Virus record (IMG/VR): IMGVR_UViG_3300030390_000232
Span: 1 to 64,000 of that record
From: a virus
DNA length: 64,000 nt
Reading direction: 5' to 3' (one strand)
The position numbers and the translations under genes are program-made. Below, in pieces: positions 18,662 through 61,597 of this stretch (position 1 is the stretch's first letter; every line of letters begins with the position of its first letter). The notes below the pieces were generated by a model. The model ran no database searches and had not been told where the DNA came from. It saw nothing but the letters and a program-made list of their open reading frames with translations.

Positions 18662-18704
18662 CTACGTTACACTAGTCCCCCTCCACTGGTGTAACGTAGT
18701 TTTT
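18662..18704 (+). terminator. Strong rightward terminator at the convergent junction
   Basis: Fourteen-pair stem: CTACGTTACACTAG (18662-18675) with CTGGTGTAACGTAG (18686-18699), a 10-base loop, then TTTTT. The one non-Watson-Crick pair is U-G in the rightward RNA but A-C in the leftward RNA, and a T run follows only on the + strand, so it is directional. It ends the early arm at the stop codon of the last late gene. Confidence 0.85.
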
Positions 18705-31800: not shown

Positions 31801-34800
31801 ACGCATCTTTTATAGTTTGTGTATCGGCTGCTGTTTGACGATCTGCGTCTACACCACTACGATAAGTGCCCGTAGCTGCACCAAGGTCGGTATTTAAACC
31901 TGTACCCGCAAATGCAAGTAACTGTTCGTCGGTCAAAACACCATCGTAACCTAACCCGTCTAGGTACGATCTAACATCGGCAGTGTTAGTTATATCGGTT
32001 TCTACTTTACCTTTACCCTGTACATCAGTTCTAGCGCCGGTCATATCTACTAGGCTGTCTAGGTAAACACCGTAAGTTTCTTCGTCTATATCACCAACAC
32101 TTATACCTAACTCAGCAGCTAAATCAGCTTTAGCCTCTTCACGTGTGTACTGCTTAGGTTCTAAGTATGCAGCTACACCTTCGTTGTTGTTTAGGTAATT
32201 GGTAATCTCTGCTTCGCTAGGGTTGTAGTCCCCAAACGCAGTTATAGTGTCGGCACGTTTTGTTACCTCTTGCCCGACTAATGTCCCTACATATGATTCA
32301 AACGCGGCGGTTGTATACCCTTCTTCCTCGCGCCCTTCCCTAGCGTTCTCTATACCAAGCAAGGTGCTCGTGTAGGAATCTATTAACTCCTGACGTTTAG
32401 CAGGCGTAAGTGTGGTACCTAAAGCGTTAACTTGATTAGTTACTAGATCACGTATGGTGCTTTCGCTAAGATACGTAAATTCCGGTGGGGGTGTATAGGT
32501 TGTGTCAATATAGCCGTTTTCATCGACGCCTGCCGCTGCTACATATGCTTCAAACGCGGCTATGTTATCAGCTTGGCTTGTTCTACCAAAAGTAAAGAGG
32601 TCGTTAACGTCTTCTTCGGCTATTTTATTAGTCGTAACCACTGTACCGTCTTCACGAACTTGACCAGTGGGTTTAGCGTATACATATACCCTAGGTTGCA
32701 CATTAGCTAGATGGTATTTTTCATACCCAAGGGATCTCATGAGGATTACAACATCTTCCTCATCGGTAAATGATCTTAGGAGTTCCTGTATTGACCTATC
32801 GTTTACTCTATTGTTGTCTTCATCTAAGGTAAATGAAGTACCAACGTATGCAGCTAATTCTCCTGCGGTAGGGTTATAGTTGGCCCCAAGTTTTTCTCTA
32901 TACGCGGCGGTTACTTCCTCTGTTGTATTTATTACGCCGTCTAAGTACGTGCTTAGTAACTCAGAATTAAATGAATATCTTTCTGCTGTAAAAGCAGCCT
33001 CTAGGTTGGCATCTATATCCTGTCTTGTCGCACCATAAGCATCGCCCATAGAAGCGTAGAACTCATCTTCTGTGAGTCCATAGTCGTTTATCATTGCCGA
33101 CTTAAACTCGTTGTAAGTTAAAGCCGAGTCGCCTGTGTCTCCACCAGTATCGCCGCCTGTGTCTCCACCAGTATCGCCGCCTGTGTCTCCACCAGTATCT
33201 CCACCAGTATCTCCACCAGTATCGCCGCCTGTGTCTCCACCAGTATCTCCACCAGTATCGCCGCCTGTGTCTCCACCAGTATCATCAATTGATTCGTCGC
33301 GGTCAGCTTGCTCTTGCGCTATGCGGGCTATCTCGGCTTCTACTCTAGCTCTGTTAGTGCCTGAGTTTAGCGTAGCAGTCATAGCAGCTTCAGAGCTAGC
33401 GCTGGTCGCGTTCGCTCCCGTAATTATTGCTTGTATGTCTGCGGCTGTAGGGTTGTAGTTTGGGTAAAGTCTAGCGTACTCAGCGGCTGCTTCTTCCGCA
33501 GATATAACCATACCGTCAAATAGGGTAGCGTACTGTTGTTTAAACTGCGCCTGAGTCTTATTGTTGTAGTCTAAAGAGGCTTGTAGTTGTGTAGCATAGT
33601 CTTGCGCGTAGTTGTAGGCTTGCTCTTCTGTCCACCCTAGGTCGTCTTGGACAAACTGCTTCCACTCGTCAATAGTCATCTTACTATCAGCGGAGTCTGG
33701 AGTGACAATTTGTGTGGCCTCTCGCAATGCCGTAGCCTGTATGTCAGCAGCACTTGTAGTTATCAAATCATCTGCCGACATGCTAGTCGTTAGCAGTGCT
33801 TGTAAATCTGCATCGGTAGGTTCGTAGTCGGGGAAGTTGGTGCTAAAAAAGTCTACGGCGTCTTGTAGACTAATAGCGTTGCTAAATTTATTGTTTTCGT
33901 TATTTAGTATTTCCCAGTTATTTCCATACTCAAAAAACTCCCCGTTATCAATTTTAGTGGCAAGCTCTTCAGGGGTCATACTGTATATAAGTTCATCAGC
34001 TTGTTCCCGCGTCCAACCGTTTTTAGTCAACTCGGCACGCATAAAAAGGTCTACAAGCGCAAAGTCTTCCGGGTTACTGCCTAGGTCGGTAGTGCCACCA
34101 CTAAATTCTTCCTGTATTGGTGGGGGGTTGTCTCCATAAGCTGACCGTGACCCATAAATACTATCGGCGGGGTTTGCCCACGCATTGTCACTTGCAATAC
34201 CTGCCCAAACTATTTCTTCATCGAGGCTAGGGTTATACTTAAAGTTAGAAGTTCCTTTCACCCACGCACGGAAGAAACCTACCTCTCTCCCATCGTCGTT
34301 ATATTCTCTACCCGGTACTTGGTCTTCTGGAGCGGTAACATACGGTGATACATATAAACTGTTGCGGGCCATTCGTGAACCCGTTTTATTGTATATAGCG
34401 TCTACGTAGGTTAGCCAACCATGCACGGGGCTATAGTAGTGTAATTGGCCTGTGGTAGGTTCGCGCACGCTATTATTGCCTGCAATTATAACTCGATCTA
34501 AGTCTTCCCACGCTTCCTCGGGTATGTTTTGTGCCCGCCAGACTACTTCTGAAACGTCCAAGTTAATCGAACTTGTGGTGCCCTGAAACTGTACTTGCTC
34601 TAAAAAAGTTCGGCTAGGAGTAAAACTAGCTCCGTATTTAGCGGCTATTAAGTCCCTAGCGGACGCCTCACTTATCCTAAAGGTGTTATCACCGTTTGCA
34701 TCAAGTAAGTTCGCTTGCGTAACGGAGTAAAACGGATTTTCTGTCCAATTAGCGTACGTTCTAAACCCGTCCTTAGCCTCGGGATAAGTAATATGCGCTT

Positions 34801-37800
34801 GCCGTAGGAGTGACGGAAATACCCGCGCTAGCAGGTCGGGGCCGGGGAGGTAGGCGGTTTCTCTTTGTTCCGCATCAAAGTCTGGGTGAGCGGTAAAACT
34901 ACCGTTAATGTTATTAGAGTACCCTAGTTCTCGGCCTTTTTCTCGCCCACGTGTATCTGAGTAGATAAGATCATATATACGCCAACCATACTGGGTCCTA
35001 GTAACAAGGTTACCATCCTGATCGTAATATCGAAGGTTCTTTTGAGATTGCTGTACGAGGTATTTCTGGCCTGAGCCGGGGTCTGTAATCTCCCACCCGA
35101 AGCCCTCATCATTCGCGTATTGAGGACCTGTATAGTCACTTATATAAGCGGAATCGGCACCAAAAGTAAGCCCTTGCTTCTCTAAGTCTGCAATGTGCTT
35201 GTTCGTAAATGCGCTTACAGAAAGTATTTGGTCGCCGTTTTCAAGTTCTTCAAACTCATTAGCAAAATACCCCGGCGTATTCTTCGCCATATCTTCAAGG
35301 GTGACATCTTTTATAAAGTTAACGCCATCAAACAGTGTGTCGTTATGTACGGAACGTAGCCCTCCCGCGACAGAAGCATCACCATTGGCAAACGTGTACA
35401 CCTCTGAAACTCCCCCATCAGGGTTAGTTAAAGTTAGAGATAATATGTTGTTAAGGTTTTCTACGTGTTTATTATACTTCGCTTCAAACGCAGTTTCTGA
35501 TAGGCGTACACCTTCGTAATCTAGTAACCCCGGTGCCGCAGTTGGCCCTCGTGTACCGTAAGATTTGTAACGTCGCCAGTTGTCTATAACTTCGCGGTCA
35601 ATATTTAGTTGGGCGCGGGTAACAAGTTCTCCGGGATTTACCTTACTATCAAACGCTTGTTTAAAGGTACCGTTTTTCCCTACTAAAAATTTACTGCCTG
35701 TTAAATTATCAGTAAATGAGTCCCCTACACTAAGCTGTCTTTGACTCCCGCCCGTGATTGATATATCTACCGGAGACACACCTACCCACCTACCGCCTGA
35801 CGCACTAGGGAGATACTGATATGAAGTCCTAGAAGCGGGGTCGTAATGTACGACGTCTACCGCGTTTGCATCTTGAGCTACAGTAGGGAAGTTGTCAAAG
35901 TTAGGGGGTGGTAACTCCCCAAAGCTAGTATCTGAGTTGTCATTTGGAGTTTGTACAACACTACCTGAGTAGTTAGCGTCATTAGCGGCACCTATTAATG
36001 CGCTTGCAGTATCAAAGTCTAGCCCAATGTCTGAAAAAGCGTCATACAGGTCGCGCTCCCCACCATCGTACATCGACATCCCACCTACAGCCCGCACAGT
36101 ATCCGCGTTAATGTTGAGGAGCAAGTTAGCCATTGGGTTGCCAGTATCGTACTGGTCTTGCCTACCTGTAAGCGTTCCAAAAGAAGGTAACTCGTTATCT
36201 AAAAGCGAGCCTATACCTTCTAGCGTACCTGTAACTGGGCCAGCTATAACCGCACCCATAAAACCGTTAAACAGGACATTACCTGTAACATTACGGTCGG
36301 GGTCCCACTTTAATAACATACCCTCTAAGTTGTTGGTTATAAATGCTTCTTCAGCGAACTCTGCTATGGTTTCTTTACCTGCTACCTTGCCAGTTTTTGT
36401 TATCCAAGCGTCAAACTGGGTAGCTAATTTAGTCGCGTACGCATCGTATGCTTTTATAGTTTCAGTAATCGACGCGGCGTCATCAAACTTATTACCAAGT
36501 CTAGCCCTTTCAAGTGCAAGTCCCCCCACACCCATTAAAGCGGCGGTAGTCATAGCAGCAAAATAGCCATTTCTCTGGGCTATATCCATGGCGTAAGCGT
36601 CAGCCATTTCGGTGATCCGCTGGTTGGTATAGTCGTAGTACCCGGCGTCTCGACGTTCTGTAATTATGTCCTTTATTAGGGCGAACGACTCGTCGTATGC
36701 CCCTCCTGCTGTGCCGCCAGCACTTTCGGCAATGTCTAATGCAGCTGCGGTAGTTAAACCTGTACGGGCGGCCCACACCTCCGCTTGATCTTTAGCGTAT
36801 TTTTTAGCTGCTGCCTTACCAACTACTGCACCTAGCCCGCCCGCAGCTAGTGTTACTGACTCTTCTACAAGCTCGCTATATAGTATTTCACCTAAAAACG
36901 CTGCGGGTTGTTCGTCGTATGCCCCTCCGATTATCTGCATAGTGCCCCACACAGCCTCATTAACATAGGGAGTACTAGGGTCGTCTTCGGCGCGAACAGC
37001 CATCAATTCGTTTAATTCTTTAGCTTTTGCTTTCCACTCTTCTGTTTTAGCGCCTTCAGCTAGGGTCATAACATCTTTGGCCCATTGGTTTAGGCGTGTG
37101 TTCTCTATATATGCACTGTCTATATCGTGGTCAATTCCAGAAGCGTCAAGGCCGCCAGCTACTACGTATAACATACCGTTAAAGGATTGAGATATATTAG
37201 CTATCGCTCCGTCTGTAATCGCTAACATGTTAACGACGCCGTCTGAAATGTTTTCGTATACTTGAGCGCCACGTGTATCTTCAAAATCTAACGGGACTTC
37301 GGCTCTTGTAGCTATATTAGCCTCATAAAAACTATTTATATCCTCGATGAGATCACTGGTGGTGTAGTTCCTAAACGCTGCTATATTTTCAGCGCTTTTT
37401 TCTTTGTGCGACTCAATAATCTTGCCAAAAGTGTACGCTGACGTACCAACAAACCTTTTACTGCCTTCTATTGTTGCGTCAATTTTTGCTTCAACGTACG
37501 CATTCCTATCGGCTAACGCCACTTCAGACTCATCTAAGTCCGCTAGAAAATCATTCTTTAAGTTTGTGCCTATACTACCCATGAACCCCCAAAAAGTTTC
37601 TGGGTTTTCTCTTTGTAGCTCTGCTAGGGTTACTCCCCCTTCAACGACAGTAGTTGGTCTACCAGAGAATACGTCCCACATAGTGACGTCTTTACCTTCG
37701 TCATTAGTTAGCTTAGATACGTACTCTTTACGTCCGGTAACTGGGTTGTACCCTATGCCACCGCCTGTTATTACATCTACCCAATCTACACCTTCGGCAA

Positions 37801-40078
37801 GCTCTATGTCCGCTGGACGTAAGGTACCGTTATTAATAAGGACTTCTGCATCGGGTATATTAAAGTCTCGTGATAAGTAGTTGTCGAACTGGGCGGCTGC
37901 GCTACCTACAGCATCCGCGTATACGTCCGGTATGGTTACAGTATACCCAGCCGATTCCTTTCTAGTTGTTGGGTTTCCGTCCGCGTCAATATAGGTATAC
38001 GTAAATAATTTAGACGGGTCTACGTTGCCAAGGTCGTCTATAAAGTTTTCTTCTATAATGGCGTCAACAATCTCGTTAAATCTATCGAGTTTGGTGGTAT
38101 CTTGCCCATCTTCACTAATTAAATGTTGTACAGTCGCGTTCTTACCCCCCACTGACTGCATAACCTGATCTCTAAACAAAGCTAGTGCTTTATCGTTAGC
38201 GGCTTGCGCTTGTATGTCAGAAGTAAACGCGCCTGTGTGCAGCCCAACCTGCATAAAATCAACGAACGCATCTTCAGTAGGGGCTAAACCGTTTAATGCG
38301 CGGTACTCTTCAACGTCGAAATCTGGAGATATATTTCTAACGATAAACTCGTTAGTTAAGGCTACCAATGGTTCAGACTCTACAGCCAAGTCGTCTAGGC
38401 TAGAAAATAGTAGTTCCTGTATGTCATTTAGGGTGGTGTTTTCTGATCTTATACGAAGTTCTAATTGACCTAACTCAGCGTCTAACGCTTCTAGTTCTGG
38501 TTGGTACCGGCGGTTAAACTCGTTTACGTCTGAACCTAGCCTGACTAATTCTTCTTCTTGGCGGCGTATTACTTCGTACGGTATTACTGTAAACCCACCC
38601 TGCTCTGCGGTGTATTCATACAACTCTTGAGGATTCTTAAAGGTTTTACCTGCCAGATTATAGCCTTTTATAGACCCATCCTCGTTTAATATGGGTGGCC
38701 CAAGGCTGCTTAAAAAAGTTTCAGTGGCCTGTAGGTACTCTGGGTATTTTTCCGTAAACTCGGCTTCCTTTTGTCTAAAGGCGTCTAACTTTTCCGTAAA
38801 CTCTCTGTATATAGCATCCCTATCGTTATACGCGGAGGCGTACTCACCTTGAGTTGCCGCCATGAGAGCTAGGTGGTTGTTAACGTCATCGTACTTACCA
38901 GTCATGGTATCTATGGTTAATTTTAATTTGTTAGCTGCGGAATTTACTGTATCAATACTTCCAATAAAGTCTACAAGTGCTGAAATACCACCTTTTTGTC
39001 CGTACTCATCCATAGAAGCCATTACATATTCAACAGTAGCCATCCCAGATTCTTCGTTAACACCGTTAACTAGCATGTTTGCAACGGATCTATGTACAGC
39101 GGGTATTAGTATTTCTGTAGCAGCTACCCCTAAGTCACTGCCCCAATCAATACCGGGGATTTTGTTAAGTGTCTTAGATACTACCTTAGCGGTTAGTAGA
39201 GATTGTGTGGCGGTGCTCGCTAACAGCTCAGGTGTTATTTCCTGCCCCGCTAACTCAGCGCCTACAGATACCGCTATTAAATCTTGTGCTACTTGTGGTA
39301 TTGTTTTTAGTTGGCTTACATTCTCTAGGCTAAAGACAGTCTCTCCAGCGGCGTTTACTGATTCAACAACGTTCTGTGTGGGACTGCCATCGGCATTAAA
39401 CGATTGTTCTTGGAAATTAAACCCGCCTTTTTCTTCTATAAACCCCATGACTTTAGAGACGGCAACCGTAGCACCAGCAGTAAACGCACCTTGGAGAAAA
39501 CCCTCGCCAAAGTTCCCGCCAGTAGCAAAAGTAACTGTGCCCTGCCCAACACCCTCAGTAACCATCGCTTCTGTTAGGGCTTGCAGCCCCGCGCTACCAG
39601 TAGTGGTACCTATGTATTCCCCCGCTGCGCTGCCAAGGTTTCCCCCTACTTTACCGCCAATATAGGTTGATACGTAGGTTGTCACCCCAACCTTTACCGC
39701 TTCCTCAAGATCTCCAGTCGCGTGATATGCTATAGCGGCATCTGTAAAAGGCTTAACTTTTAGGTACGCACCACCAGTAATTATAGTCGCAAGAACGTCG
39801 AATATAAACTTCGCGGGGTTGGCTTTGTAGGCGTCGGCTATACCTTGAAATATACCTTTCTGAAATTCATAGACTGGGTTTATTATTTCGTCGTCTATCC
39901 ACGACGCAACGTCTCTTAGGTCTTCTTCAAGCCCACCATGAAACAAGAAATCATTAGTGTCTTCTATAAAATCGCCTACAAGACCACCTTTTCCGGGCAC
40001 TATACCAAAAAAGTCATCCCAGACTGCTTCGTAAATATTATCTAATCCTGTTACCTTGCCGACCCAACCACCGCACAT
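28814..40078 (-). CDS. Giant repeat-rich virion protein (3754 aa)
   Basis: One uninterrupted 11.3-kb gene, about 18% of the window. The N-terminal 1,300 residues have Gly/Ala-rich segments that could enter membranes (for example ATIITGGAYL) and helical stretches. The middle (about 1,350-2,200) is Asn/Tyr/Asp-rich. Then follow a (GGDT)n spacer, a series of short modules with the pattern Y-x-P-T-x-A-[ED]-[IL], three tandem 162-residue repeats (around 2,640-3,040), and near residue 3,573 an EF-hand/dockerin-like loop DVNNDGYIDQAD. The C-terminus ends in KAAATGGLITDESDELLALL, again with a GG motif. Its size and place suggest an ejected or tail-tube inner protein. No polymerase or wall hydrolase motif was recognised. 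Confidence 0.7.
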   Translation of the reverse strand: MCGGWVGKVTGLDNIYEAVWDDFFGIVPGKGGLVGDFIEDTNDFLFHGGLEEDLRDVASWIDDEIINPVYEFQKGIFQGIADAYKANPAKFIFDVLATIITGGAYLKVKPFTDAAIAYHATGDLEEAVKVGVTTYVSTYIGGKVGGNLGSAAGEYIGTTTGSAGLQALTEAMVTEGVGQGTVTFATGGNFGEGFLQGAFTAGATVAVSKVMGFIEEKGGFNFQEQSFNADGSPTQNVVESVNAAGETVFSLENVSQLKTIPQVAQDLIAVSVGAELAGQEITPELLASTATQSLLTAKVVSKTLNKIPGIDWGSDLGVAATEILIPAVHRSVANMLVNGVNEESGMATVEYVMASMDEYGQKGGISALVDFIGSIDTVNSAANKLKLTIDTMTGKYDDVNNHLALMAATQGEYASAYNDRDAIYREFTEKLDAFRQKEAEFTEKYPEYLQATETFLSSLGPPILNEDGSIKGYNLAGKTFKNPQELYEYTAEQGGFTVIPYEVIRRQEEELVRLGSDVNEFNRRYQPELEALDAELGQLELRIRSENTTLNDIQELLFSSLDDLAVESEPLVALTNEFIVRNISPDFDVEEYRALNGLAPTEDAFVDFMQVGLHTGAFTSDIQAQAANDKALALFRDQVMQSVGGKNATVQHLISEDGQDTTKLDRFNEIVDAIIEENFIDDLGNVDPSKLFTYTYIDADGNPTTRKESAGYTVTIPDVYADAVGSAAAQFDNYLSRDFNIPDAEVLINNGTLRPADIELAEGVDWVDVITGGGIGYNPVTGRKEYVSKLTNDEGKDVTMWDVFSGRPTTVVEGGVTLAELQRENPETFWGFMGSIGTNLKNDFLADLDESEVALADRNAYVEAKIDATIEGSKRFVGTSAYTFGKIIESHKEKSAENIAAFRNYTTSDLIEDINSFYEANIATRAEVPLDFEDTRGAQVYENISDGVVNMLAITDGAIANISQSFNGMLYVVAGGLDASGIDHDIDSAYIENTRLNQWAKDVMTLAEGAKTEEWKAKAKELNELMAVRAEDDPSTPYVNEAVWGTMQIIGGAYDEQPAAFLGEILYSELVEESVTLAAGGLGAVVGKAAAKKYAKDQAEVWAARTGLTTAAALDIAESAGGTAGGAYDESFALIKDIITERRDAGYYDYTNQRITEMADAYAMDIAQRNGYFAAMTTAALMGVGGLALERARLGNKFDDAASITETIKAYDAYATKLATQFDAWITKTGKVAGKETIAEFAEEAFITNNLEGMLLKWDPDRNVTGNVLFNGFMGAVIAGPVTGTLEGIGSLLDNELPSFGTLTGRQDQYDTGNPMANLLLNINADTVRAVGGMSMYDGGERDLYDAFSDIGLDFDTASALIGAANDANYSGSVVQTPNDNSDTSFGELPPPNFDNFPTVAQDANAVDVVHYDPASRTSYQYLPSASGGRWVGVSPVDISITGGSQRQLSVGDSFTDNLTGSKFLVGKNGTFKQAFDSKVNPGELVTRAQLNIDREVIDNWRRYKSYGTRGPTAAPGLLDYEGVRLSETAFEAKYNKHVENLNNILSLTLTNPDGGVSEVYTFANGDASVAGGLRSVHNDTLFDGVNFIKDVTLEDMAKNTPGYFANEFEELENGDQILSVSAFTNKHIADLEKQGLTFGADSAYISDYTGPQYANDEGFGWEITDPGSGQKYLVQQSQKNLRYYDQDGNLVTRTQYGWRIYDLIYSDTRGREKGRELGYSNNINGSFTAHPDFDAEQRETAYLPGPDLLARVFPSLLRQAHITYPEAKDGFRTYANWTENPFYSVTQANLLDANGDNTFRISEASARDLIAAKYGASFTPSRTFLEQVQFQGTTSSINLDVSEVVWRAQNIPEEAWEDLDRVIIAGNNSVREPTTGQLHYYSPVHGWLTYVDAIYNKTGSRMARNSLYVSPYVTAPEDQVPGREYNDDGREVGFFRAWVKGTSNFKYNPSLDEEIVWAGIASDNAWANPADSIYGSRSAYGDNPPPIQEEFSGGTTDLGSNPEDFALVDLFMRAELTKNGWTREQADELIYSMTPEELATKIDNGEFFEYGNNWEILNNENNKFSNAISLQDAVDFFSTNFPDYEPTDADLQALLTTSMSADDLITTSAADIQATALREATQIVTPDSADSKMTIDEWKQFVQDDLGWTEEQAYNYAQDYATQLQASLDYNNKTQAQFKQQYATLFDGMVISAEEAAAEYARLYPNYNPTAADIQAIITGANATSASSEAAMTATLNSGTNRARVEAEIARIAQEQADRDESIDDTGGDTGGDTGGDTGGDTGGDTGGDTGGDTGGDTGGDTGGDTGGDTGGDTGDSALTYNEFKSAMINDYGLTEDEFYASMGDAYGATRQDIDANLEAAFTAERYSFNSELLSTYLDGVINTTEEVTAAYREKLGANYNPTAGELAAYVGTSFTLDEDNNRVNDRSIQELLRSFTDEEDVVILMRSLGYEKYHLANVQPRVYVYAKPTGQVREDGTVVTTNKIAEEDVNDLFTFGRTSQADNIAAFEAYVAAAGVDENGYIDTTYTPPPEFTYLSESTIRDLVTNQVNALGTTLTPAKRQELIDSYTSTLLGIENAREGREEEGYTTAAFESYVGTLVGQEVTKRADTITAFGDYNPSEAEITNYLNNNEGVAAYLEPKQYTREEAKADLAAELGISVGDIDEETYGVYLDSLVDMTGARTDVQGKGKVETDITNTADVRSYLDGLGYDGVLTDEQLLAFAGTGLNTDLGAATGTYRSGVDADRQTAADTQTIKDALAATGLTMPAGFDYAGFLPRGEGQSDFSWETAIPYAVNAYKKSRQYTRTEAIADLETELGRSLTQEEIDNGVYDSFLDGVVQLDGDTDADATGRTQVETDITNDADVRSYLEGLGYTPTEEEISAFAGTGLGIDLGTTTAEYRSGVDAERQTAADTQTIKDALAATGLTMPAGFDYAGFLPRGEGQSDFSWETAIPYAVDAYKKSRQYTRAEAKADLAAELGISVGEIDEEVYGTYLDGVVQLDGNTDADATGKTQVETDITSEQEVRDYLSDYTLGEDFSFDGLTGLDVDLDDALGGFKASNRTTAQNQIAADLGTKGWADASNADIAEVQGLDSAGRDAWIAERQFTEQQAIDALAAQGITADHPQFQSLVDQLVVDKGDAGTPTTQGELVDNPEDELIDRYIITQAEIDAEMGGYSYFDFAQTPLGVTPGVADDTTLGGLVQTHVEDNYVQADAAREALNGIAGVDAYEQDLDGNYVITDDQLLGMGLAGQYDPTTLGTKVDAATTTEEEVIAAFGENYNPTDAEIARYMGLLPDGDIGTTIPAYVAGRMDTLVSDVGDLSLTVSQLQDQLNGALADGGSLDQAVSKVADDLGIAEDALLKLIGDNSNKFDDLEAAFGTQATGDQEATGIWANIADLEGDVGDLQDEVGDIQDAFGTQGTTTAGEDGILGTEDDVVVSATGIYGIIDQVAQGVLTNEEAIAALQGAVGVPATYAGDGVTVLTPATGIYAQSGTGVNAEVLQAIDAVYEYVGQADFASDTTVQQVADLLGKPADLVTQDDIDMATSIFGEFEGTYLPLADPAPTYAEGQVDSYDVNNDGYIDQADVDLLTELYGGVDAAYNNVVEGLSEGSRFASTGVFGILDQQNRNQAAANQAIIDQAAIDAQTQADINTQTNTQIQAQIQAQQDAEKRSLLYSLAASQPQQAAVEPHVAPFKQRYNWESIFSSEQEEADREKISPYGGYSPEPEQSTKAAATGGLITDESDELLALLGLE
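29321..29359 (-). other. EF-hand/dockerin-like calcium loop in the giant protein
   Basis: Codes DVNNDGYIDQAD followed by VDLL: acidic residues at loop positions 1, 3, 5 and 12 with Gly at 6 and Ile at 8, as in calcium-binding EF-hand and dockerin loops. It is a single copy. Confidence 0.6.
30960..32157 (-). repeat. Tandem 486-bp coding repeats (2.5 copies) in the giant protein gene
   Basis: Period 486 bp (162 codons): unit 1 about 32157-31672, unit 2 about 31671-31186, unit 3 partial to about 30960. Each unit starts QYTR.EA.ADL..ELG and contains TDITN.ADVRSYL.GLGY and RSGVDA.RQTAADTQTIKDA. Within units 1 and 2 a stretch of about 165 bases (31191-31356 against 31677-31842) is almost identical, so the duplication is recent or kept uniform by gene conversion. 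Confidence 0.85.
33132..33287 (-). repeat. 12-bp minisatellite coding (GGDT)n
   Basis: Twelve gap-free 12-bp units plus a diverging thirteenth. Three synonymous versions occur on the + strand: A cctgtgtctcca, B ccagtatcgccg, C ccagtatctcca, in the order A B A B A C C B A C B A. The alternating versions show growth by 24-bp or larger duplications while the protein stays GGDT. It probably forms a flexible spacer in the giant virion protein. Confidence 0.9.
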
Positions 40079-51265: not shown

Positions 51266-52012
51266 TTAGCACCTGTAGTTACTAGGTACGAACCTAGCGG
51301 CTGTTTTTTCACGGTCTTCTTCCGAAGCTAACCTAAATTGATCTTCATATTCTTGTTTTAGCATCTGTACACGAGGCATAAGCTCGGGCACTTTCATAGC
51401 TATATAGTACGCCAGTCCTGCTACCGCGCACGGGAGGAACCTGAATGGCATATCTGCTGTCTGCGCTCCCGTACCCGCGTCTTGTATACGGCGCATACGG
51501 TAGTAATATATTTGATAAGTACTGCTTTTGTCCGGCACTGGCCATACGGTCAAGAACTGTACGTTTGTGCCTAGAGTAGTAGTGTTGTTAGAAAGAGAAC
51601 CACTTTGGTAAGTACCCGCTTGTCCTAGTCTATGGACTAATGCTTGTAGTGGTCTACCTGTAGATAGTTTGTTGGGTATAGCTGCGTACGTAGGTAAACT
51701 GATTCTGTTTAACGACAGGTCAGACTGTGATGACGCATCGCCCGCGTTTGTACGTATGTTCATCTCACATACGTCTATCGTGTCAGCGGGTAGACTATAC
51801 GTAGCATCGTCTTTTGTAAGGTCAATATAACCTTCATCTATCGTCCACAAGTTAATCCCACGATTAGCCCACTCAATGGTAAGCATGTTCATGGAACGTC
51901 TAGCCGTACGTAGGTCGTAACCCGTGCGCATCTCGCGCCCAGCGCGTTCCCACGCCTCCTCCGCTATCTCTGTAAATTGCGGATTAAATCCTGTAGTGCC
52001 TGAAGTAGTCAT
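51266..52012 (-). CDS. P22 gp4-like tail accessory/adaptor protein (248 aa)
   Basis: N-terminal helices with IAEEAWERAGREMRTGYDL and SMNMLTIEWANRGINLWTI, then a beta region with QIYYYRMRRIQDAG and a helical C-terminus (PCAVAGLAYYIAMKVPELM). This order is that of phage adaptors related to P22 gp4, which bind the portal ring; by eye the fit is fair. It goes with the gp10-like hub (42836). One-base overlap with the following small gene. Confidence 0.65.
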   Translation of the reverse strand: MTTSGTTGFNPQFTEIAEEAWERAGREMRTGYDLRTARRSMNMLTIEWANRGINLWTIDEGYIDLTKDDATYSLPADTIDVCEMNIRTNAGDASSQSDLSLNRISLPTYAAIPNKLSTGRPLQALVHRLGQAGTYQSGSLSNNTTTLGTNVQFLTVWPVPDKSSTYQIYYYRMRRIQDAGTGAQTADMPFRFLPCAVAGLAYYIAMKVPELMPRVQMLKQEYEDQFRLASEEDREKTAARFVPSNYRC

Positions 52013-52305
52013 TATTTAGTTCCACATCCGCATTTGTGTCGTCGTTTACGAGCTAAGCCACCGCCCCCAAACTTTACTGTCGCGGGTTTAGTGTTCTTAA
52101 CTACCGTTTTGCCCTTTGCGCCTTCCCGCTTCTTTTTCTTAGCAGTGGCTGCACGTTGGCCTTTAGTTAGCGAGTTCGCTTTGTTGCGCGGTAAGCAACG
52201 GTCTGGGTTTTTCTTGTCTTTTGATGTGCCACACTTACCTTTGACCTTACCATCAGTACCGACACGAACCCAGTCTTGGTCAACCCATTTCTTTAGATCG
52301 CCCAT
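52012..52305 (-). CDS. DUF5872-like small basic protein (97 aa)
   Basis: Opens WVDQDWVRVGTDGKVKGKCG, then NPDRCLPRNKANSLTKGQRA, then a Lys/Arg-rich tail with KFGGGGLARKRRHKCGCG. The pattern 'W-V-R-V, CG, P-x-C-x-P, kA, T-x-x-Q-R' corresponds, from memory, to DUF5872, a family without known function found in phages and in viruses of algae. The cysteines could bind zinc. It overlaps the adjacent tiny gene by one base (TAATG). Confidence 0.6.
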   Translation of the reverse strand: MGDLKKWVDQDWVRVGTDGKVKGKCGTSKDKKNPDRCLPRNKANSLTKGQRAATAKKKKREGAKGKTVVKNTKPATVKFGGGGLARKRRHKCGCGTK

Positions 52306-52466
52306 TATTTCTTCTTACCTTTAGAACCTTTAGCGTAATTAGGGTCTTTGCAATACTTAGAAGCTGCCATATTAGCATATGCGCTAGGGTAAGTATCGAA
52401 GGTACGTTTCGCCCACGACTTACCCTTAGAACATATTTTACCACCAGACTTATAGTATCTGCGCAT
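52305..52466 (-). CDS. Tiny conserved Lys/Cys-rich protein (53 aa)
   Basis: MRRYYKSGGKICSKGKSWAK, then RTFDTYPSAYANMAASKYCK and a Lys-rich end. The 'GGKIC..GK..AKR.F..YPSAYAN....K.C' pattern is one I have seen in many marine phage and some algal-virus proteins; the function is unknown. It shares the opening MR-x-YYK-x-GGK with the protein at 54093-54401. It is tightly packed between its neighbours. Confidence 0.65.
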   Translation of the reverse strand: MRRYYKSGGKICSKGKSWAKRTFDTYPSAYANMAASKYCKDPNYAKGSKGKKK

Positions 52467-52468
52467 CA

Positions 52469-52822
52469 CTACCTCATTTTACACTTACGGACGCCTTTCT
52501 TGGCCTTGCCCACACCGCGAACTTTACCGCCTTTTTTGAATTTAGGTTTTTTATCCTTAACAGTTACCACTTTACTGTCGCCTTCTTGCGTTTTTTTAGA
52601 CCCAAAACCACGTTTACTAAGTCCATCTTGTAAGTCTTCGGAAAGAGAACCCTCTCCACCCTGCTTACGCCCGTACGCTAACGCTGCATTAAAACTTGCG
52701 CGTTGTTCTTCCGTAAACCCAACTTCGTTTGCTTCCCTTTTTGTTAGGTTCTTACCAGTAGAAATATGATACCCGAAAGCATCTTTATCTTTAAGGCGTT
52801 CATACGTCTCTTTAGCACTCAT
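52469..52822 (-). CDS. Basic protein with C-terminal GGKVRG/CKMR tag (117 aa)
   Basis: The helical, charged body (SAKETYERLKDKDAFGYHIS, then EEQRASFNAALAYGRKQ) ends in a 20-residue basic tag KKGGKVRGVGKAKKGVRKCK plus MR. The same tag closes the next two proteins upstream. The body has no known fold. It may bind DNA or be carried into the capsid by the tag; see findings. Confidence 0.6.
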   Translation of the reverse strand: MSAKETYERLKDKDAFGYHISTGKNLTKREANEVGFTEEQRASFNAALAYGRKQGGEGSLSEDLQDGLSKRGFGSKKTQEGDSKVVTVKDKKPKFKKGGKVRGVGKAKKGVRKCKMR

Positions 52823-52824
52823 GG

Positions 52825-53562
52825 TTAGCGCATCTTACACTTACGGACGCCTTGCTTAGCAATACCTGCACCACGAACTTTACCACCATGCTTAAACGCT
52901 GGGGCTTCGCGGTTTTTCCTACGTCTAGCGCCAGCATTCATACCTTCTTGGCCAGAAATACCCGCACTCGAACCTGAGTCTGACTGCATTGCGTCTGCAC
53001 GGGTTTTAGCCGCTGCTAGTCGGTCAGCCGAACCTTGTTTTTTCTTACCAACATTGCTTGGACTGAAAAAATCGGCGTTAGCTGCTGCGTTAGACTTACG
53101 CTGGGCAGCTTTACCTGCGCCAACTTCGGTTGCTACAGTATTGTCAGCAGACCTATTCGCTTTGGAACCTACAGTGTCCTTTGCTCTAGTTACAGCATTT
53201 GAGCCTTTTGGTAGCGACGCTTCTAAATCCGCAGAACTTAAACCTTTAGGGTTCTTGCCCTTAGTAGGATTAGCCATAGCTGTAAAGTTAGGCTTCTTCT
53301 TAGTGCCACCAACTTTGGCTGTGCCTTCGCTAACATTAGTCTTAGTAGTGACTTTTTTCTTAGCGGGGGCTTTAGCTTTAGCTTCAGCTTTCTTTTTCTT
53401 AGGCGGACGATTAAAGATATACCCGTAAGTATCCTTATTACCGTCTAACCCACCACCGATAACTGATTTACCTTCGGCGATACGTTCCTTTCGTCGGGCC
53501 TTAAACTTCTCTTTAGAAGCCTTACTTTTCTCTATTGTTTTCTTTATGTCTCTTCTTGGCAT
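52825..53562 (-). CDS. Basic Lys/Ala-rich protein with C-terminal GGKVRG/CKMR tag (245 aa)
   Basis: Very rich in Lys, Ala, Ser and Gly, and largely disordered (AEAKAKAPAKKKVTTKTNVS is typical, like a histone tail). It ends KHGGKVRGAGIAKQGVRKCK plus MR, the tag shared with the proteins on either side. A DNA-condensing or capsid-inner role is plausible from composition. No domain was recognised. It is spaced two bases from each neighbour. Confidence 0.6.
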   Translation of the reverse strand: MPRRDIKKTIEKSKASKEKFKARRKERIAEGKSVIGGGLDGNKDTYGYIFNRPPKKKKAEAKAKAPAKKKVTTKTNVSEGTAKVGGTKKKPNFTAMANPTKGKNPKGLSSADLEASLPKGSNAVTRAKDTVGSKANRSADNTVATEVGAGKAAQRKSNAAANADFFSPSNVGKKKQGSADRLAAAKTRADAMQSDSGSSAGISGQEGMNAGARRRKNREAPAFKHGGKVRGAGIAKQGVRKCKMR

Positions 53563-53564
53563 GA

Positions 53565-54083
53565 CTACCTCATCTTACACTTACGTACGCCTTGTTTAGC
53601 AATGCCCGCACCGCGAACTTTACCGCCTTTTTTGTACGTCTTGACCTTACCGCCTTTCTTCATAGCAGGCATTTTAGGGGGCATAGCAGGAGCACCACCG
53701 CCCATACCGGGCATAGCGGAAGGAGCACCACCGCCACCAGCGGCACGCATCATACGTTTTTTACGCTCTTCTTCCGACTCCATAGGAGCAGGGCCGCCAG
53801 CACCGGGCATGATAGGTGGAGCACCACCAAGTGATTTGCCCATAGGAGGAGCAGCGCCAGCCATTCCGCCAGCCATATATTTTTTAGTTTTCACTTTACC
53901 ACCTTTTTTGTAGTCAGATTTTTTCATGTCTACCATCTTTCCTGTCTTAGGATCAGTACCCATGTCTAAATCTTGCTTACGTTTAGTTTCTTTGCGTTTA
54001 GGGTCTTCGTTGCCTAGGCTAGCGTTTGCGTTGGCTACGTTTACTTTTTTTGCCTTAGCGCGGTCTTTAGCGGTCATCTTCAT
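53565..54083 (-). CDS. Met/Pro/Gly-rich protein with GGKV repeats and C-terminal tag (172 aa)
   Basis: Basic N-terminal part, then YKKGGKVKTKKYMAGGMAG, a Pro/Gly/Met/Ala-rich middle, and two GGKV units at the end (KKGGKVKTYKKGGKVRG, then AGIAKQGVRKCKMR). It thus has both the internal GG motif found in the ejection-protein block and the C-terminal tag of its neighbours. No enzymatic features were seen. It is probably a virion component. Confidence 0.6.
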   Translation of the reverse strand: MKMTAKDRAKAKKVNVANANASLGNEDPKRKETKRKQDLDMGTDPKTGKMVDMKKSDYKKGGKVKTKKYMAGGMAGAAPPMGKSLGGAPPIMPGAGGPAPMESEEERKKRMMRAAGGGGAPSAMPGMGGGAPAMPPKMPAMKKGGKVKTYKKGGKVRGAGIAKQGVRKCKMR

Positions 54084-54092
54084 AGGGTATAC

Positions 54093-54401
54093 CTAACATT
54101 TCCAGCGTTTGCGAGCTTGGCGAAGCCTTGAATTAGGGTCTTTAGCCGCCTTCGGAAACTGTTTCATTTGTCCAGCAGAACGCGCACAGTACGACTTTCG
54201 ACGTGATGCGCGCTTGCCAGTTGGTTTGTCTTCAGTTACTGCTGTCTTTAACTTACTACCGGGGTTATCCCGACGATACTTAGCTACACCTTTGGCGGTC
54301 ATGCCAGCACCAGATTTGGTAGGGCGTTTCTGCCCGCCGCCTATGGTGTGGCCCTTCATAGAGCCTTTGACCTTACCGCCTTTCTTGTAGTAAGCGCGCA
54401 T
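54093..54401 (-). CDS. DUF6321-like small basic protein (102 aa)
   Basis: N-terminal MRAYYKKGGKVKG, then GMTAKGVAKYRRDNPGSKLK, KRASRRKSYCARSAGQMK and a final DPNSRLRQARKRWKC. The 'R-R-K-S-[FY]-C-A-R ... D-P-N-S-R ... R-K-W-x-C' pattern is that of DUF6321 as I remember it, a family of unknown function in phages and algal viruses. Two conserved cysteines may bind metal or cross-link. It overlaps the next structural gene by one base. Confidence 0.65.
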   Translation of the reverse strand: MRAYYKKGGKVKGSMKGHTIGGGQKRPTKSGAGMTAKGVAKYRRDNPGSKLKTAVTEDKPTGKRASRRKSYCARSAGQMKQFPKAAKDPNSRLRQARKRWKC

Positions 54402-55481: not shown

Positions 55482-56384
55482 TTAAGCACCACAGCCAAAG
55501 ATGGCTAATGGGTCAGAAACACCAAAAGAGTAACGCTCACGAGCTTTATAACGACTGTTACCAGTGTCAAAATCCGCGTCCATAGACGTAGACATTTTTG
55601 AACGAGTAAAGTGCTTTAAGCCATTAGGGATGTCAGTGGTTAGAAACCAGTTCCCTGTGTCAGTTAAGTAATGGTTAACTGCGTATCCGCCGGGAACCAC
55701 ACCATTGCTAACGATAGCATTGACGTCGTTATCAGCAGTACCCACTCGACCCTCAGTCTCCAACAAACGAGTTGCAACGAATTGCAAGTCAGATGGGATA
55801 ATGAGTTTCTTAGGACGTGCAGCGATTTTTAAGCCACGCTCGTCAGTCCACTTACCAATCTGAATAACTGCATTCTCAAGTGAAGTTTCGTTAAGGTCAA
55901 CGTCACCACCAGTGTTTGAGTTAGAACCACCACTTACTAAGTTATGGGCATTGCCTACTAGAGACTCGCCATCACCGTAAGTAACAGTAGATACAAACGC
56001 GTTATTCAAAATAGAAGCAGCTTTAACTTGCTTCGTGTACGCCATAGCGCGAGCTAATGCTTTAGTGTAACGACCCGATAAAGAATCGTACAGGTTATCT
56101 TCAATCGCTTCTTCAGTGATTGCGAAACCCATAGCAACAGTTTCGTGCGTGTAGCGTGCAGTGAATGCTTCTTGCGCTGTATCGTATTCGATAGATGCGC
56201 CTTCAGCTTTTGTGCCTGCTGCGCCGAAGCCAGACAATTTAGTTTCTTCCTCAAACGAGCGGTCAGAAGTCTCTGTTTCAAAGATTTCTTTATGCTCTTC
56301 ACCGTACTTGGCATATTCTAAACCAAATAAAGCGTTAAGGCCGGGTAATAACTCCTTGAGGAGCTGGGATCTTGAAATAGCCAT
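55482..56384 (-). CDS. Major capsid protein, Mu gpT-like (300 aa)
   Basis: The N-terminal helix (SRSQLLKELLPGLNALFGLE) and the later segments THETVAMGFAITEEAIEDNL, ARAMAYTKQVKAASILNNAF, KKLIIPSDLQFVATRLLETE and WFLTTDIPNGLKHFTRSKMS read as a Mu gpT-type HK97-fold shell protein. The size is right for an uncleaved or short-armed form. It follows scaffold and decoration genes, and a strong terminator is just downstream. A co-encoded GroES-like protein may help it fold. Confidence 0.85.
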   Translation of the reverse strand: MAISRSQLLKELLPGLNALFGLEYAKYGEEHKEIFETETSDRSFEEETKLSGFGAAGTKAEGASIEYDTAQEAFTARYTHETVAMGFAITEEAIEDNLYDSLSGRYTKALARAMAYTKQVKAASILNNAFVSTVTYGDGESLVGNAHNLVSGGSNSNTGGDVDLNETSLENAVIQIGKWTDERGLKIAARPKKLIIPSDLQFVATRLLETEGRVGTADNDVNAIVSNGVVPGGYAVNHYLTDTGNWFLTTDIPNGLKHFTRSKMSTSMDADFDTGNSRYKARERYSFGVSDPLAIFGCGA

Positions 56385-57511: not shown

Positions 57512-58510
57512 TTACACATTCCTCATATCTTGAACTAGTTGTTTGGCGTACTGCTCATTAGACAGTCCCAAACGTTTGGCAAGCCGTACTTGTGTTTGCG
57601 TTAAAGTGACCTTTTTAGGGGCCGTGCTCCGCGTAGCGGGGGCAACCACATTAGCTCGTTTCTTTTTCGGTGCATCCTCGAACTTGTCGGGGAAGATTTG
57701 TCGCATACGAGTATCAATCTTCTCGTAGTATTCATCACTGTCAGTACTCATACCTTCAGCAATGAGTTTGTTGTGTATGCCCATTGCTAGGCTGTTCATC
57801 TCTAGGTCTGTTTCAAACCAAGGATTTTTAGCTACCCATTCTTCAGCACGTTTGTTGTCTTGTGCTGAGGCGTTGTCAGGTATTGTTACACTAGAAGTAT
57901 CCTCTTGTAAAGGCTGGGGCTTAAAGTTTTGTAACTTATCAGCCTTTATCTTCGCAGTGGTTAACTTATCCTGCGCTTCTAGGACCTTATCCGCATCGCC
58001 TGCGTCATAAGCCGCTTTGTACGCTTTCTTAGCTGTTAGAACTTCGACAGCAGTGCTCCGCTTGGCCTGTTCTAACATAGCTTCACGGTTCTTATCCACA
58101 TCACTTTTTAAAGTTTTGTTTTCGTCAGCCAATTTCTTGGCGAACTCAACAGCTTCTTGGCGCTCGCGTTCTGCCGCTTCCTTAGCTCGACGCTCGTCGT
58201 GGTAGCCTTTCTGTATCTTGTTTATACGCTTCTTGACCTTAGAAGAGTAACCTTCAAGTTCTTGCTCAGTTACATCCTCTGGTGCTTCAGAAGCCTCACG
58301 CCCTTGATCTTCTTCAGGGGTATCATCAATGATTTCAATGTCATCATCATCATCATCTTCTTCTTCAATTTCGACTTCTTGCTCCTTTTTATAGTCGTCC
58401 TCGGTTTTCTTACCACTAAGGTCGATTTCTACGGAACCCGAGTCCTCGATTTCTGTTTCTTTGTCCTCACTCTCGTGAGGGAATTCAAACTTCACTTCTT
58501 CAAATGGCAT
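57512..58510 (-). CDS. Scaffold-like protein (332 aa)
   Basis: The strongly acidic first 90 residues (including a run of Asp), a central coiled coil (KRINKIQKGYHDERRAKEAA onwards to about 190) and a basic C-terminal end (RLAKRLGLSNEQYAKQL) follow the plan of phage scaffold proteins. The basic C-terminal helix would contact the shell. It lies between the GroES-like gene and the capsid genes, as in other podoviruses. Confidence 0.8.
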   Translation of the reverse strand: MPFEEVKFEFPHESEDKETEIEDSGSVEIDLSGKKTEDDYKKEQEVEIEEEDDDDDDIEIIDDTPEEDQGREASEAPEDVTEQELEGYSSKVKKRINKIQKGYHDERRAKEAAERERQEAVEFAKKLADENKTLKSDVDKNREAMLEQAKRSTAVEVLTAKKAYKAAYDAGDADKVLEAQDKLTTAKIKADKLQNFKPQPLQEDTSSVTIPDNASAQDNKRAEEWVAKNPWFETDLEMNSLAMGIHNKLIAEGMSTDSDEYYEKIDTRMRQIFPDKFEDAPKKKRANVVAPATRSTAPKKVTLTQTQVRLAKRLGLSNEQYAKQLVQDMRNV

Positions 58511-58522
58511 GATTATTTCCTC

Positions 58523-58918
58523 TTACGCGTGCGTGATACCACGAGGGTCGTCGATAACGGCCTCAATAGAATCATCGTTCATTAGGCGGTACTCTTTACC
58601 AGATACGGTAAATCGTGTTCCGGTGTTCATACGAAACATTACGTAGTCGCCGACTTTACACCACGGCTTCCCACTGAATCGCTCTTTGTCGGTATAGGCT
58701 TGGTCGCCCATATCTAGCACAATGCCCATGATGGACATAATGTATTCACGTTTAAGTACAGAGTCAGTCTTGATAAGACCACCTTCGTACTCTGTTTCCA
58801 CTTCAGGTAAGGCTACTAACACACGATAGCCCACAGGTTTTGGTAATTGCGCCTCAAAAGTAGCTTCTTGCTGCTCCTTTCGTATGTGCGGGGGCACGGC
58901 GAGGATTGAATCAGTCAT
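58523..58918 (-). CDS. GroES-like co-chaperonin (131 aa)
   Basis: Residues about 24-125 have the GroES pattern: PKPVGYRVLVALP, a mobile-loop-like part TEYEGGLIKTDSVL, IMGIVLDMGD, VGDYVMFRMNTG and EYRLMNDDSIEAVID. The N-terminal 20 residues are extra. Phage co-chaperonins such as T4 gp31 work with host GroEL to fold the capsid protein; its location among head genes fits. The start at 58918 or 58921 follows GGAAG, overlapping the previous gene by about eight bases. The mobile loop lacks a clear hydrophobic I-V-L tripeptide except the GGLI segment. Confidence 0.75.
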   Translation of the reverse strand: MTDSILAVPPHIRKEQQEATFEAQLPKPVGYRVLVALPEVETEYEGGLIKTDSVLKREYIMSIMGIVLDMGDQAYTDKERFSGKPWCKVGDYVMFRMNTGTRFTVSGKEYRLMNDDSIEAVIDDPRGITHA

Positions 58919-59108
58919 CATCTTCTTCCAAATAGTTTTTAGCGAGGTCTTCGATATGGTTTAGACAGGCATCGTATCCTCGGGTTTTACCTGTTAGTTC
59001 TCTATATTCAGCGTAGGTATTAGCCCCGCCTCCACAGAGAAATTCTTGCAAGGATTCTTTATCCTCGTTAACTTTGTCGCGCAGTACGTCAAATACTGTT
59101 TTAGCCAT
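58911..59108 (-). CDS. Small acidic hypothetical protein (65 aa)
   Basis: Helical acidic protein (VFDVLRDKVNEDKESLQEFL) with GGGANTYAEYRELTGKTRGY in the middle and an acidic end. Comparable small genes lie after portals in related phages. It starts in the portal stop (one-base overlap). The role is unknown. Confidence 0.6.
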   Translation of the reverse strand: MAKTVFDVLRDKVNEDKESLQEFLCGGGANTYAEYRELTGKTRGYDACLNHIEDLAKNYLEEDDD

Positions 59109-61597
59109 TACTTGTCACCCTTGGGTTTGTTGTTGGCGTTTCTCATGTTAAGTAAGTCCATATCTAGCTTAGTGGTGTCGCGGCGACGGTCTGCGGACAT
59201 CTTAGCTCCCGCTTTGCGCTCGTCTAACTCCAACTCAGCTTGTTCTATCTGCATCTTCATCTCAGCTAACTTGGCGTCTAACGCTAGTTTCTTCTGTGCG
59301 AGTTGTGCGTCAGTCTGATCTTTCATAGTCTTACGTTGAGCTTCAGCTTGTTTGGCTTGTGCGTCTGCCTGATCTTTCTGCATCTTACGCTGCACTTCTT
59401 GCTGCTTGGTTTGCTGCTCTTGTTGCTGTAGCTGGAACACAGGGTCTTTAGCTTGTTCTTCGCCTTTCTTCTGTGCGGCTTGGTTCTTGTGCCCTTCGGT
59501 TAACTGCTTACCTGCGTCCGCTACTAGGCGAGACAGGTTAACTTCAACTTCTTCTGGTAGCTCGCTGTTAGGTGCCGTTAAGGTAAAGCCCAACTTCTCT
59601 TCCATCTGCTGTCTATATAAGAAGGCTGTATGCTCTGCGATGTGGGCTTGGATAGCGCCCATGATCTGCTTGGCTTGTGGGTTTTGGCCAATCATTTGAG
59701 CAATCATCGGGTCTTCCATAAACGACTTGTGGGCGTCAATGTGAGCTTGATGATCTTGGTATATAAACGCTTGGACAGGCTTTCCAGTTAAGAAGCCCAT
59801 GTTTTCACTGATTGGGTCTGTAGGCTCTGCATCTTCCGATGTAGGTACTAACTTCTCCGCGTTCTTAATACCTAACACGTCAATCATCTGACGGTGTAAC
59901 TGGGGTAAATCATATATCTGTGGGGCTTGCGACGACATCTGGAGGACTGTCTGATACTGGACAACACGTTGTGCCATGGTTGTGTTGTTAGGATCGCTTA
60001 CAGGTATTACCTCTACCATCTCGTAGTCAGAACGTTTTGCGTTCAGCTCGCCACGATTAGGTTGGTACTCATATGAGGCGGGGGCGTGCTCAGCCATGAG
60101 AGACTTGAGTAGTTTGAACTCCTGCTTCATAGAGTAGTGTACACGTGCTTGTACTGCGGCCATTGGCTTGAGCGTGCGCTCTAGTATTGCAAGTGTTGTG
60201 CCAACTGGAGCATTAGCGGACATATCTGAGATGTCCATGTCACTAATAGCACCTAGACGGCGACCTTCAGTCGTAATCTTATCCAGTAGCGCAAGTAATG
60301 TTTGGCTTGGCTCTTTATAAGGTAGCGGCATGATGTTGTCGCGGATCGCACCAGACGGTACATCGACATCCTTCCACTCACCCGGCTCAATCGGCGTATC
60401 ATCACCCTTAATACGTAACCCGCGAGCCTTTAAACCGCCCGGTAGGTTAGATAATGTACCAGCATCAACCAACTGGCGAATGATAGACGTGCCTGCGCGT
60501 GCGTAGCCGCCAATGATATGGATTAGACCCATACCATAGAAGCCAAAACCCGGTACGTATGTGTAATGTACAAAGTGCTGACGCTTCATTGTGAGGTCGT
60601 CATCTTCGTCCCAATTGCGTCGGATGGCTAAAATTTCACCAGTACCACGTTCGATTGTGATGACATATGGCTTGGCAATTTCGTCAGGATCGTCATCTAG
60701 CGCTTCCATAAACATGTCAGCGTGTATTTCATAGAGTGTATAGCGGTCATCGTCACTTATTGAGTAACCACCTTCTTCTGCTTTACGCTCCTCGACATCG
60801 GTATGGAACGCTTGTGGTTCCCCTAATCTTACGTCTAAGTAAAACCCCATAGCTTGGAGTTTGCGCATCTCATTCTTAGTTTTGCGCATTACGTGAGTAA
60901 CACGTTCAGCCGTCTCAATAGTAGACGCGCCGTAAGGCACGATTACTTCTTCTGCTGGGATATAACTAGCGCAGACGCGACCCATGTTTGGTTCGTAGTA
61001 AACCTTCTTAAAAGCAGACCCCGATAGACCTAAAGAGTATAAGAGACGCTCATGCTCTGGACGATACTCAACCATGTTCTCAGTAAGCTCGTAGTTCATG
61101 TCAGCGCGTACGCGTTCTGCGGCTTCCGTCTTATCCTTACTCTCCTCCCCTAGAATCTTAGTTTTAACCGGGCCAGCGGCAGGGAACGTCTCAGACATAG
61201 CTTCGGCTTGGAACCGGATAGCTGCTTCAGCAAGTACCGTAGAGTACACGCCACATGCGCCTTCCCACGGTTGTGTACGTTCTTCGTACTTAAAGCCCAA
61301 TACATCAAGCCCTTCAACATAAGTATCCGCCCACTCCTTTCGGCTTTGTACGTCTGCGTCAACTAACTCCATAAGTTCACTGGATATTAACGCTAGCTCT
61401 TCTTCGTCAAGTTTCTCCGCTAGGTTGTCTTCAAACTTAGACTCAATATCGTCCTCGTCGTCTGGCATGAGTGATATTTCTACACTGCCATCACTTAACG
61501 TAACTTCTTTAGGATCGACGATCTCGATCTCTAATGCTTCTTCCAGCCCCTCATCTATGCCTAGCGGTGCCTGATATAAACCTTTTTCAATTGCCAT
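59108..61597 (-). CDS. Portal protein (829 aa)
   Basis: Large portal of the type found in marine podovirus-like genomes. The core around residues 95-500 includes ERTQPWEGACGVYSTVLAEA, IRFQAEAMSETFPAAGPVKT and NLPGGLKARGLRIKGDDTPI, and is followed by a helical C-terminal barrel region and a Gln/Lys/Glu-rich coiled coil (about 690-790). The N-terminal 60 residues are acidic. It lies directly after the terminase gene, as expected. Twelve copies should form the DNA channel at the vertex and bind the gp4-like adaptor. Confidence 0.85.
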   Translation of the reverse strand: MAIEKGLYQAPLGIDEGLEEALEIEIVDPKEVTLSDGSVEISLMPDDEDDIESKFEDNLAEKLDEEELALISSELMELVDADVQSRKEWADTYVEGLDVLGFKYEERTQPWEGACGVYSTVLAEAAIRFQAEAMSETFPAAGPVKTKILGEESKDKTEAAERVRADMNYELTENMVEYRPEHERLLYSLGLSGSAFKKVYYEPNMGRVCASYIPAEEVIVPYGASTIETAERVTHVMRKTKNEMRKLQAMGFYLDVRLGEPQAFHTDVEERKAEEGGYSISDDDRYTLYEIHADMFMEALDDDPDEIAKPYVITIERGTGEILAIRRNWDEDDDLTMKRQHFVHYTYVPGFGFYGMGLIHIIGGYARAGTSIIRQLVDAGTLSNLPGGLKARGLRIKGDDTPIEPGEWKDVDVPSGAIRDNIMPLPYKEPSQTLLALLDKITTEGRRLGAISDMDISDMSANAPVGTTLAILERTLKPMAAVQARVHYSMKQEFKLLKSLMAEHAPASYEYQPNRGELNAKRSDYEMVEVIPVSDPNNTTMAQRVVQYQTVLQMSSQAPQIYDLPQLHRQMIDVLGIKNAEKLVPTSEDAEPTDPISENMGFLTGKPVQAFIYQDHQAHIDAHKSFMEDPMIAQMIGQNPQAKQIMGAIQAHIAEHTAFLYRQQMEEKLGFTLTAPNSELPEEVEVNLSRLVADAGKQLTEGHKNQAAQKKGEEQAKDPVFQLQQQEQQTKQQEVQRKMQKDQADAQAKQAEAQRKTMKDQTDAQLAQKKLALDAKLAEMKMQIEQAELELDERKAGAKMSADRRRDTTKLDMDLLNMRNANNKPKGDK

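Follow-up and report, generated by a model that had tools for sequence, protein, structure and literature searches.

Three consecutive minus-strand genes in the window, i.e., the whole 64,000-nucleotide stretch of viral DNA that was analysed (within a virus record of 64,475 bases), encode proteins with unrelated bodies and the same terminal peptide. This peptide also ends hundreds of other proteins with mostly unrelated bodies, which are encoded at one place in the structural gene region of one phage lineage, and each locus uses a single form of it. We give slightly better than even chances to the reading, drawn from sequence comparison, that the peptide is a lineage-specific C-terminal address tag, which puts diverse cargo into the procapsid or head.

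Three neighbouring genes and their C-termini

The three genes are separated by gaps of 2 bases. Protein A (53565–54083, minus strand, 172 aa) has a low-complexity body rich in K, G, P and M with several GGKVK motifs; protein B (52825–53562, minus strand, 245 aa) is basic, and its predicted structure is mostly of low confidence, resembling disorder; the body of protein C (52469–52822, minus strand, 117 aa) shows no relation to A and B. The final 21 residues read KGGKVRGAGIAKQGVRKCKMR in protein A (codons at 53568–53630, minus strand), HGGKVRGAGIAKQGVRKCKMR in protein B (52828–52890, minus strand) and KGGKVRGVGKAKKGVRKCKMR in protein C (52472–52534, minus strand), and pairwise they are identical at 17, 18 and 20 of the 21 positions. 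The reading frames and shared C-termini are thus as the earlier note had claimed. Among the remaining 146 open reading frames of at least 50 aa in the window, the best pair has 7 of 21 terminal residues in common, and no further tagged reading frame was found in the window besides these three.

The tagged cluster is bordered upstream by the gene for the major capsid protein (55482–56384, minus strand), which matches Phage_capsid_4 and Mu-like gpT and presumably has the HK97 fold, and downstream by the gene for the SU10-type adaptor (51266–52012, minus strand). Three neighbours are basic and untagged. The DUF6321 protein (54093–54401, minus strand) carries an N-terminal KKGGKVKG; the DUF6321 domain matches several PHROG families that vary widely in length, each time at their C-terminal end, which suggests that it may be another recurring C-terminal basic module. 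The other two neighbours are small: one at 52305–52469 (minus strand) has a YPSAYAN module and belongs to phrog_27331, and one at 52012–52305 (minus strand) belongs to phrog_23735.

Further features of the window lie outside this cluster. The gene at 58523–58921 sits where the examined isolate relatives have an annotated co-chaperonin GroES. A reading frame of 3,754 aa without Pfam match (28814–40078) combines a GGDTGGDT repeat with an EF-hand-like DVNNDGYIDQADVDLL stretch, and a protein of 2,082 aa (18703–24951) contains the large polyvalent protein domain LPD39. Two larger proteins (26525–28807 and 24966–26489), both near the far end of the structural region, have GGxV/GGxM motifs (GGKVMKYNNGGGV, GGQVKKFQEGGPV, GGLMRYAEGGSV) that resemble those preceding the tag.

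Distribution of the tag and its phage lineage

The tag was searched for with degenerate DNA patterns on IMG/VR contigs; all counts are regular-expression matches, and some contig records overlap. Absence of the tag from C-termini elsewhere had been named as a point against it; instead, the tag was found in hundreds of IMG/VR contigs, and hundreds of other proteins end in it. Two forms were recognized: the first form, [KR]VRGxGxAxxGVRxxKM[RV], in at least 175 distinct proteins, and a sister form, SKRADGIAQRGKT[KR]GxM, in at least 259 distinct proteins. The strict core of the first form occurs at no fewer than 216 places and in at least 161 unique C-termini. Among the 216 matches listed, 203 stop exactly two residues past the last conserved K and read KM[R/V/Y/L/F/M], 12 are extended by five residues (mostly MKG[AS]), and one is extended by three. 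Since the pattern that retrieved first-form tags made no demand for a stop codon, the C-terminal position is a result of the search. As a control, contigs were fetched by the capsid protein only, and 58 of their 60 RGxGxAxxG sites lie at most 13 residues from the C-terminus; the same holds for 17 of 139 such sites in cellular control contigs.

The sister form occupies the same place in capsid-related contigs without the first form. A direct search retrieved at least 241 unique proteins in at least 117 loci, 77 of which hold two to four; among the 241 matches listed, 175 stop exactly three residues past the core, and in no case is the tag more than 52 residues away from the protein end. Across all fetched loci, which are partly non-independent because some contigs are present twice, 182 have the first form only, 135 the sister form only, and none is mixed, while two or more tags are present in 127 loci (both forms). 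Among the longer contigs fetched by capsid protein, 25 of 36 contain a tag, and most of the others have, by eye, off-consensus tags such as KVRGNGCCARPKKCKIR, KIRGAGIERKGLRKAKYI, VGIESKGKTKCKMR or KKADGCAIRGKTKGRMV, so that both forms seem to belong to a single continuum. The RGxGxAxxG core is also found in a small single-copy gene of locus L493 (760–1023) and of about 95 similar loci, which ends in RGTGAATKG..ARGPM[AG], is flanked by Zn-finger-like and 50247-like genes, and stops exactly 8 residues past the core in 91 of 96 cases; this gene is not in the window. In the structures predicted for protein B and for the RGTGAATKG family, which are shallow, low-confidence models consisting mostly of coil, the tag has no fold, as would be expected for a short linear motif.

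The bodies that precede the tag are diverse: 392 tagged proteins with distinct starts yield 232 body representatives at the BLAST level, a figure raised by low-complexity masking, and an alignment of 80 representatives has a mean column identity of 9%, with invariant residues confined to the GG-tag segment. Among first-form tagged proteins, there are bodies that are K/G-rich and of low complexity except for one loop of EF-hand or dockerin type (e.g., DLTGDGKVTQADILKG, KLDKNKDGKISGEDF). Of 80 tagged proteins, a few were matched by Pfam models of the EF-hand, and a scan of 80 tagged proteins for defence families gave no match.

Database and literature searches returned little that resembles the tag. 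With tblastn against 50,697 phage records, no match was obtained for the first-form tag peptides, for the RGTGAATKG and sister-form tags, or for a composed peptide, and this last result indicates that the sensitivity of tblastn for short peptides is low; the variant of the Planktothrix and Synechococcus phages retrieved that phage itself and one chance match. A looser sister pattern retrieved almost only chance frames from prokaryote genomes, with one genuine-looking C-terminal case (L316). The three tagged proteins of the window have no significant match in Pfam or PHROGs, profiles of three tag forms have no credible relative in the PDB, and a literature search for the tag string found no paper containing it. 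The tag is real, widespread and apparently undescribed.

The tagged genes have a defined place: 215 of 217 tagged reading frames are found in the interval from the major capsid gene to the gene for the SU10-type neck adaptor. Relatives of the head, neck or tail genes of this phage are present in each of the 162 contigs retrieved with the first form and in 118 of 120 retrieved with the sister form, the two exceptions being shorter than 1.7 kb. Judged by these genes, nearly all contigs retrieved by the tag belong to one lineage of uncultured aquatic phages, which is related to the HTVC023P-like pelagiphages; HTVC023P-type phages rank among the ocean's most abundant phages (PMC10149686). The capsid protein of the window has relatives in 21 phage records, the nearest being Synechococcus phage MinM2, and others include two Planktothrix phages, Pelagibacter phages HTVC023P and HTVC027P, phage DSL-LC04, and roseophages CRP-901 and CRP-902. 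Planktothrix phage Pag-Yong1 and MinM2 encode, at the same place, a protein of 308 aa ending in GGMIGRDGCAKRGRTKGRFI, and HTVC023P has two proteins, gp32 and gp51, ending in RGVGAAIRGHKFIGVK and RGGGAAVRGMGFKGVF (RGxGxAxxG type) elsewhere in its structural region. Basic tagged genes beside the capsid gene were not found in HTVC023P, HTVC027P, CRP-902 or the other isolates checked, and the tag is not universal across the wider capsid family.

A putative address tag for head assembly

In the proposed mechanism, head assembly in each phage of the lineage would be accompanied by the production of one to four small, lysine-rich proteins, unrelated to each other and mostly unfolded, whose final 18–22 residues would serve as a short linear C-terminal address tag. 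The free C-terminus would present this tag, usually after a flexible GGxV stretch, to a single partner from that phage's own head-assembly machinery (scaffold, capsid interior or portal), which would recognize it and bring the tagged proteins into or onto the procapsid. The tagged proteins would then reside beside the DNA in the head, from where ejection into the host could follow. We infer the partner, the packaging and any role of the tagged proteins after ejection. Candidate partners in the window are the major capsid protein, a putative scaffold protein (57512–58510, minus strand), which is encoded before the capsid gene and has a very acidic N-terminal part, and the SU10-type portal (59108–61597, minus strand). 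A broader proposal, to which we give somewhat less than even chances, is that an abundant aquatic lineage uses a near-fixed C-terminal address, in one form per genome, to load several unrelated and fast-changing proteins for delivery into the host, and that co-evolution of the address with its receptor has led to mutually exclusive forms.

A connection to the virion is provided by four tagged proteins of the sister or a variant form (L053:14340–14861, L420:683–1366, L025:5668–6255 and L464:2077–2631), which start with a “SKKQ” module of about 42 residues that includes SKKQHxFMxAVAHNPAFAKKxGIPQSVG. The N-termini of phrog_22033 and phrog_25121, both annotated as “virion structural protein” in the head and packaging class, match this module, which is also present in phiKZ 165.1, in a small gene from the head region of Stenotrophomonas phage BUCT555, and in gp322 of phage CBB (CBB_322). 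CBB_322 was detected in CBB virions by mass spectrometry with 30 unique peptides and 43.6% coverage (PMC5259590). The link is indirect, as it concerns the N-terminal module of a tagged subset and not the tag or the three proteins of the window.

The earlier note had proposed a sorting or docking signal in the capsid region, which might lead into the prohead, onto DNA or onto a host partner. The terminal signal itself is well supported by its position, the unrelated bodies, the gene place, the lineage and the unmixed forms, and the prohead is the best of these options; the other two are less likely, since uncharged residues prevail among the invariant positions and the tag was retrieved from one structural lineage only. 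If DNA were the target, the tag would be a DNA- or polyanion-binding tail of protamine-like condensing or counter-ion proteins, with the shared end contacting the DNA. This would suit the pI of the first-form cluster representatives (about 9.7–12) and the mean net charge of the tag (+8.2 for the first form, +5.1 for the sister form). However, the invariant positions are R, G, G, A, G and K in the first form and R, D, G, A, G, T and G in the sister form, the latter including an aspartate, and neither a fixed distance from the C-terminus nor the strict use of one form per locus would be expected of a general DNA contact. We consider such a tail unlikely.

Slightly less probable again is a role in the neck or tail, where the tag would act as a structural docking strand for adaptor, nozzle or ejection proteins; the tagged proteins would then be parts of the head–tail joint rather than cargo. 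In favour of this, the tagged genes precede the adaptor gene, and the single conserved RGTGAATKG..ARGPMA gene sits between neck genes. Moreover, when the tag form was mapped on FastTree trees of ten head and neck genes, the lowest number of changes, one each, was seen for the portal, the Zn-finger-like gene and g57064. The number of tagged proteins (one to four) and their bodies are hypervariable, though, which is unusual for fixed structural parts, and the tagged genes are missing in relatives whose neck genes are of the same kind. Over the ten trees, the tag form changes one to three times for nine genes, among them the scaffold gene, which fits an old split and singles out no partner. The tenth gene, g56399, is an unlikely tag partner in view of the 9 changes on its tree.

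Short cationic C-terminal peptides are possible sorting or degradation signals, and the tag might accordingly bind a host factor (a membrane, chaperone or protease) after expression or ejection. A tag of this kind would be expected in other phages and prophages as well, but the contigs it retrieves form one lineage by their structural genes, and its form follows the head and neck trees. Furthermore, the first-form pattern was not found when about 85,000 prokaryote species, each represented by a single genome, were searched. Binding to a host factor is therefore improbable.

At the DNA level, the three tags of the window differ at 8–14 of 63 nucleotides, with 4–7 synonymous codon differences among 17–20 identical residues. 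It had been claimed that many silent changes mark the peptide, not the DNA, as the target of selection. The silent differences are present, and constraint on the first form at the peptide level is real, with a pN/pS between orthologues of 0.19 for the tag vs. 0.33 for the body; in the sister form, pN/pS of the core is hardly lower than that of the body (0.26 vs. 0.27). The claim is partly right, but within a locus the codon identity at identical first-form tag residues is 0.625, compared to 0.423 expected from local codon usage. Together with the orthologue of gene 52825 in locus L001, whose tail resembles that of gene 53565 in a direct case of a tail swap, this suggests that tag ends are copied between neighbouring genes while the peptide persists. 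For the sister form, codon identity is close to the expectation from local codon usage (0.472 vs. 0.398), so its tags persist as peptides. Codon sharing and the tail swap might also be read as signs of a functionless remnant of repeated partial gene duplication or 3′-end recombination, but this is highly improbable given the hundreds of divergent bodies that keep a common end whose distance from the stop is fixed, the low first-form pN/pS and the sister tags' persistence.

Comparison with known systems

The preferred reading of the tag as an address for head cargo has a close counterpart in the T-even phages, whose internal proteins are highly diverse with the capsid targeting sequence (CTS) alone conserved (PMC3012670). 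In T4, the CTS is an N-terminal propeptide of about 10–20 residues, which is cut off by gp21 (PMC7411985). As in the T4 proteins IPI–III and Alt, diverse proteins have one short signal in common, but the phage tag is C-terminal and unrelated in sequence. Most of the tags have no nearby [LIV]xE site, the kind of site at which a prohead protease would cut; one was found near 27 of 175 first-form and 63 of 259 sister-form tags, and no match to a prohead protease family was found among the head genes scanned, a subset of the reading frames. In the giant phage SPN3US, a large number of head proteins is delivered into the cell along with the DNA, and propeptides were proposed to target them to the prohead (PMC7411985). 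The proposed route into the head and then, with the DNA, into the cell is similar, whereas the SPN3US propeptides are long, mostly N-terminal, removed by a protease and without a common short C-terminal consensus. DUF6321 (PF19846), encoded next door to the tagged genes, resembles the tag in recurring as a C-terminal basic module, but it comprises about 72 residues of other sequence and lacks the RGxGxAxxG core.

Encapsulin shells have the HK97 fold, as in phage capsids, and their cargo carries C-terminal targeting peptides (PMC8346489). As with the targeting peptide of Family 1, a short peptide sits at the C-terminus of unrelated proteins whose genes lie near the shell gene. However, the Family 1 consensus SDGSLGIGSLKRS is missing, and G[ST]L occurs in 0 of 434 phage tags; moreover, encapsulin cargo consists of enzymes, whereas the tag is carried by disordered basic phage proteins, for which binding would be putative. 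The tag belongs to neither system, as its position does not agree with the T4 CTS and its consensus does not agree with the encapsulin peptide. If the preferred reading is true, the tag would provide a sequence rule for head cargo in uncultured relatives of HTVC023P-type phages and place hundreds of unannotated proteins into one functional class, with the two exclusive forms as a built-in test of specificity. It would then represent an independent answer to the problem that is solved by the N-terminal signal of T4 and the C-terminal peptides of encapsulins.
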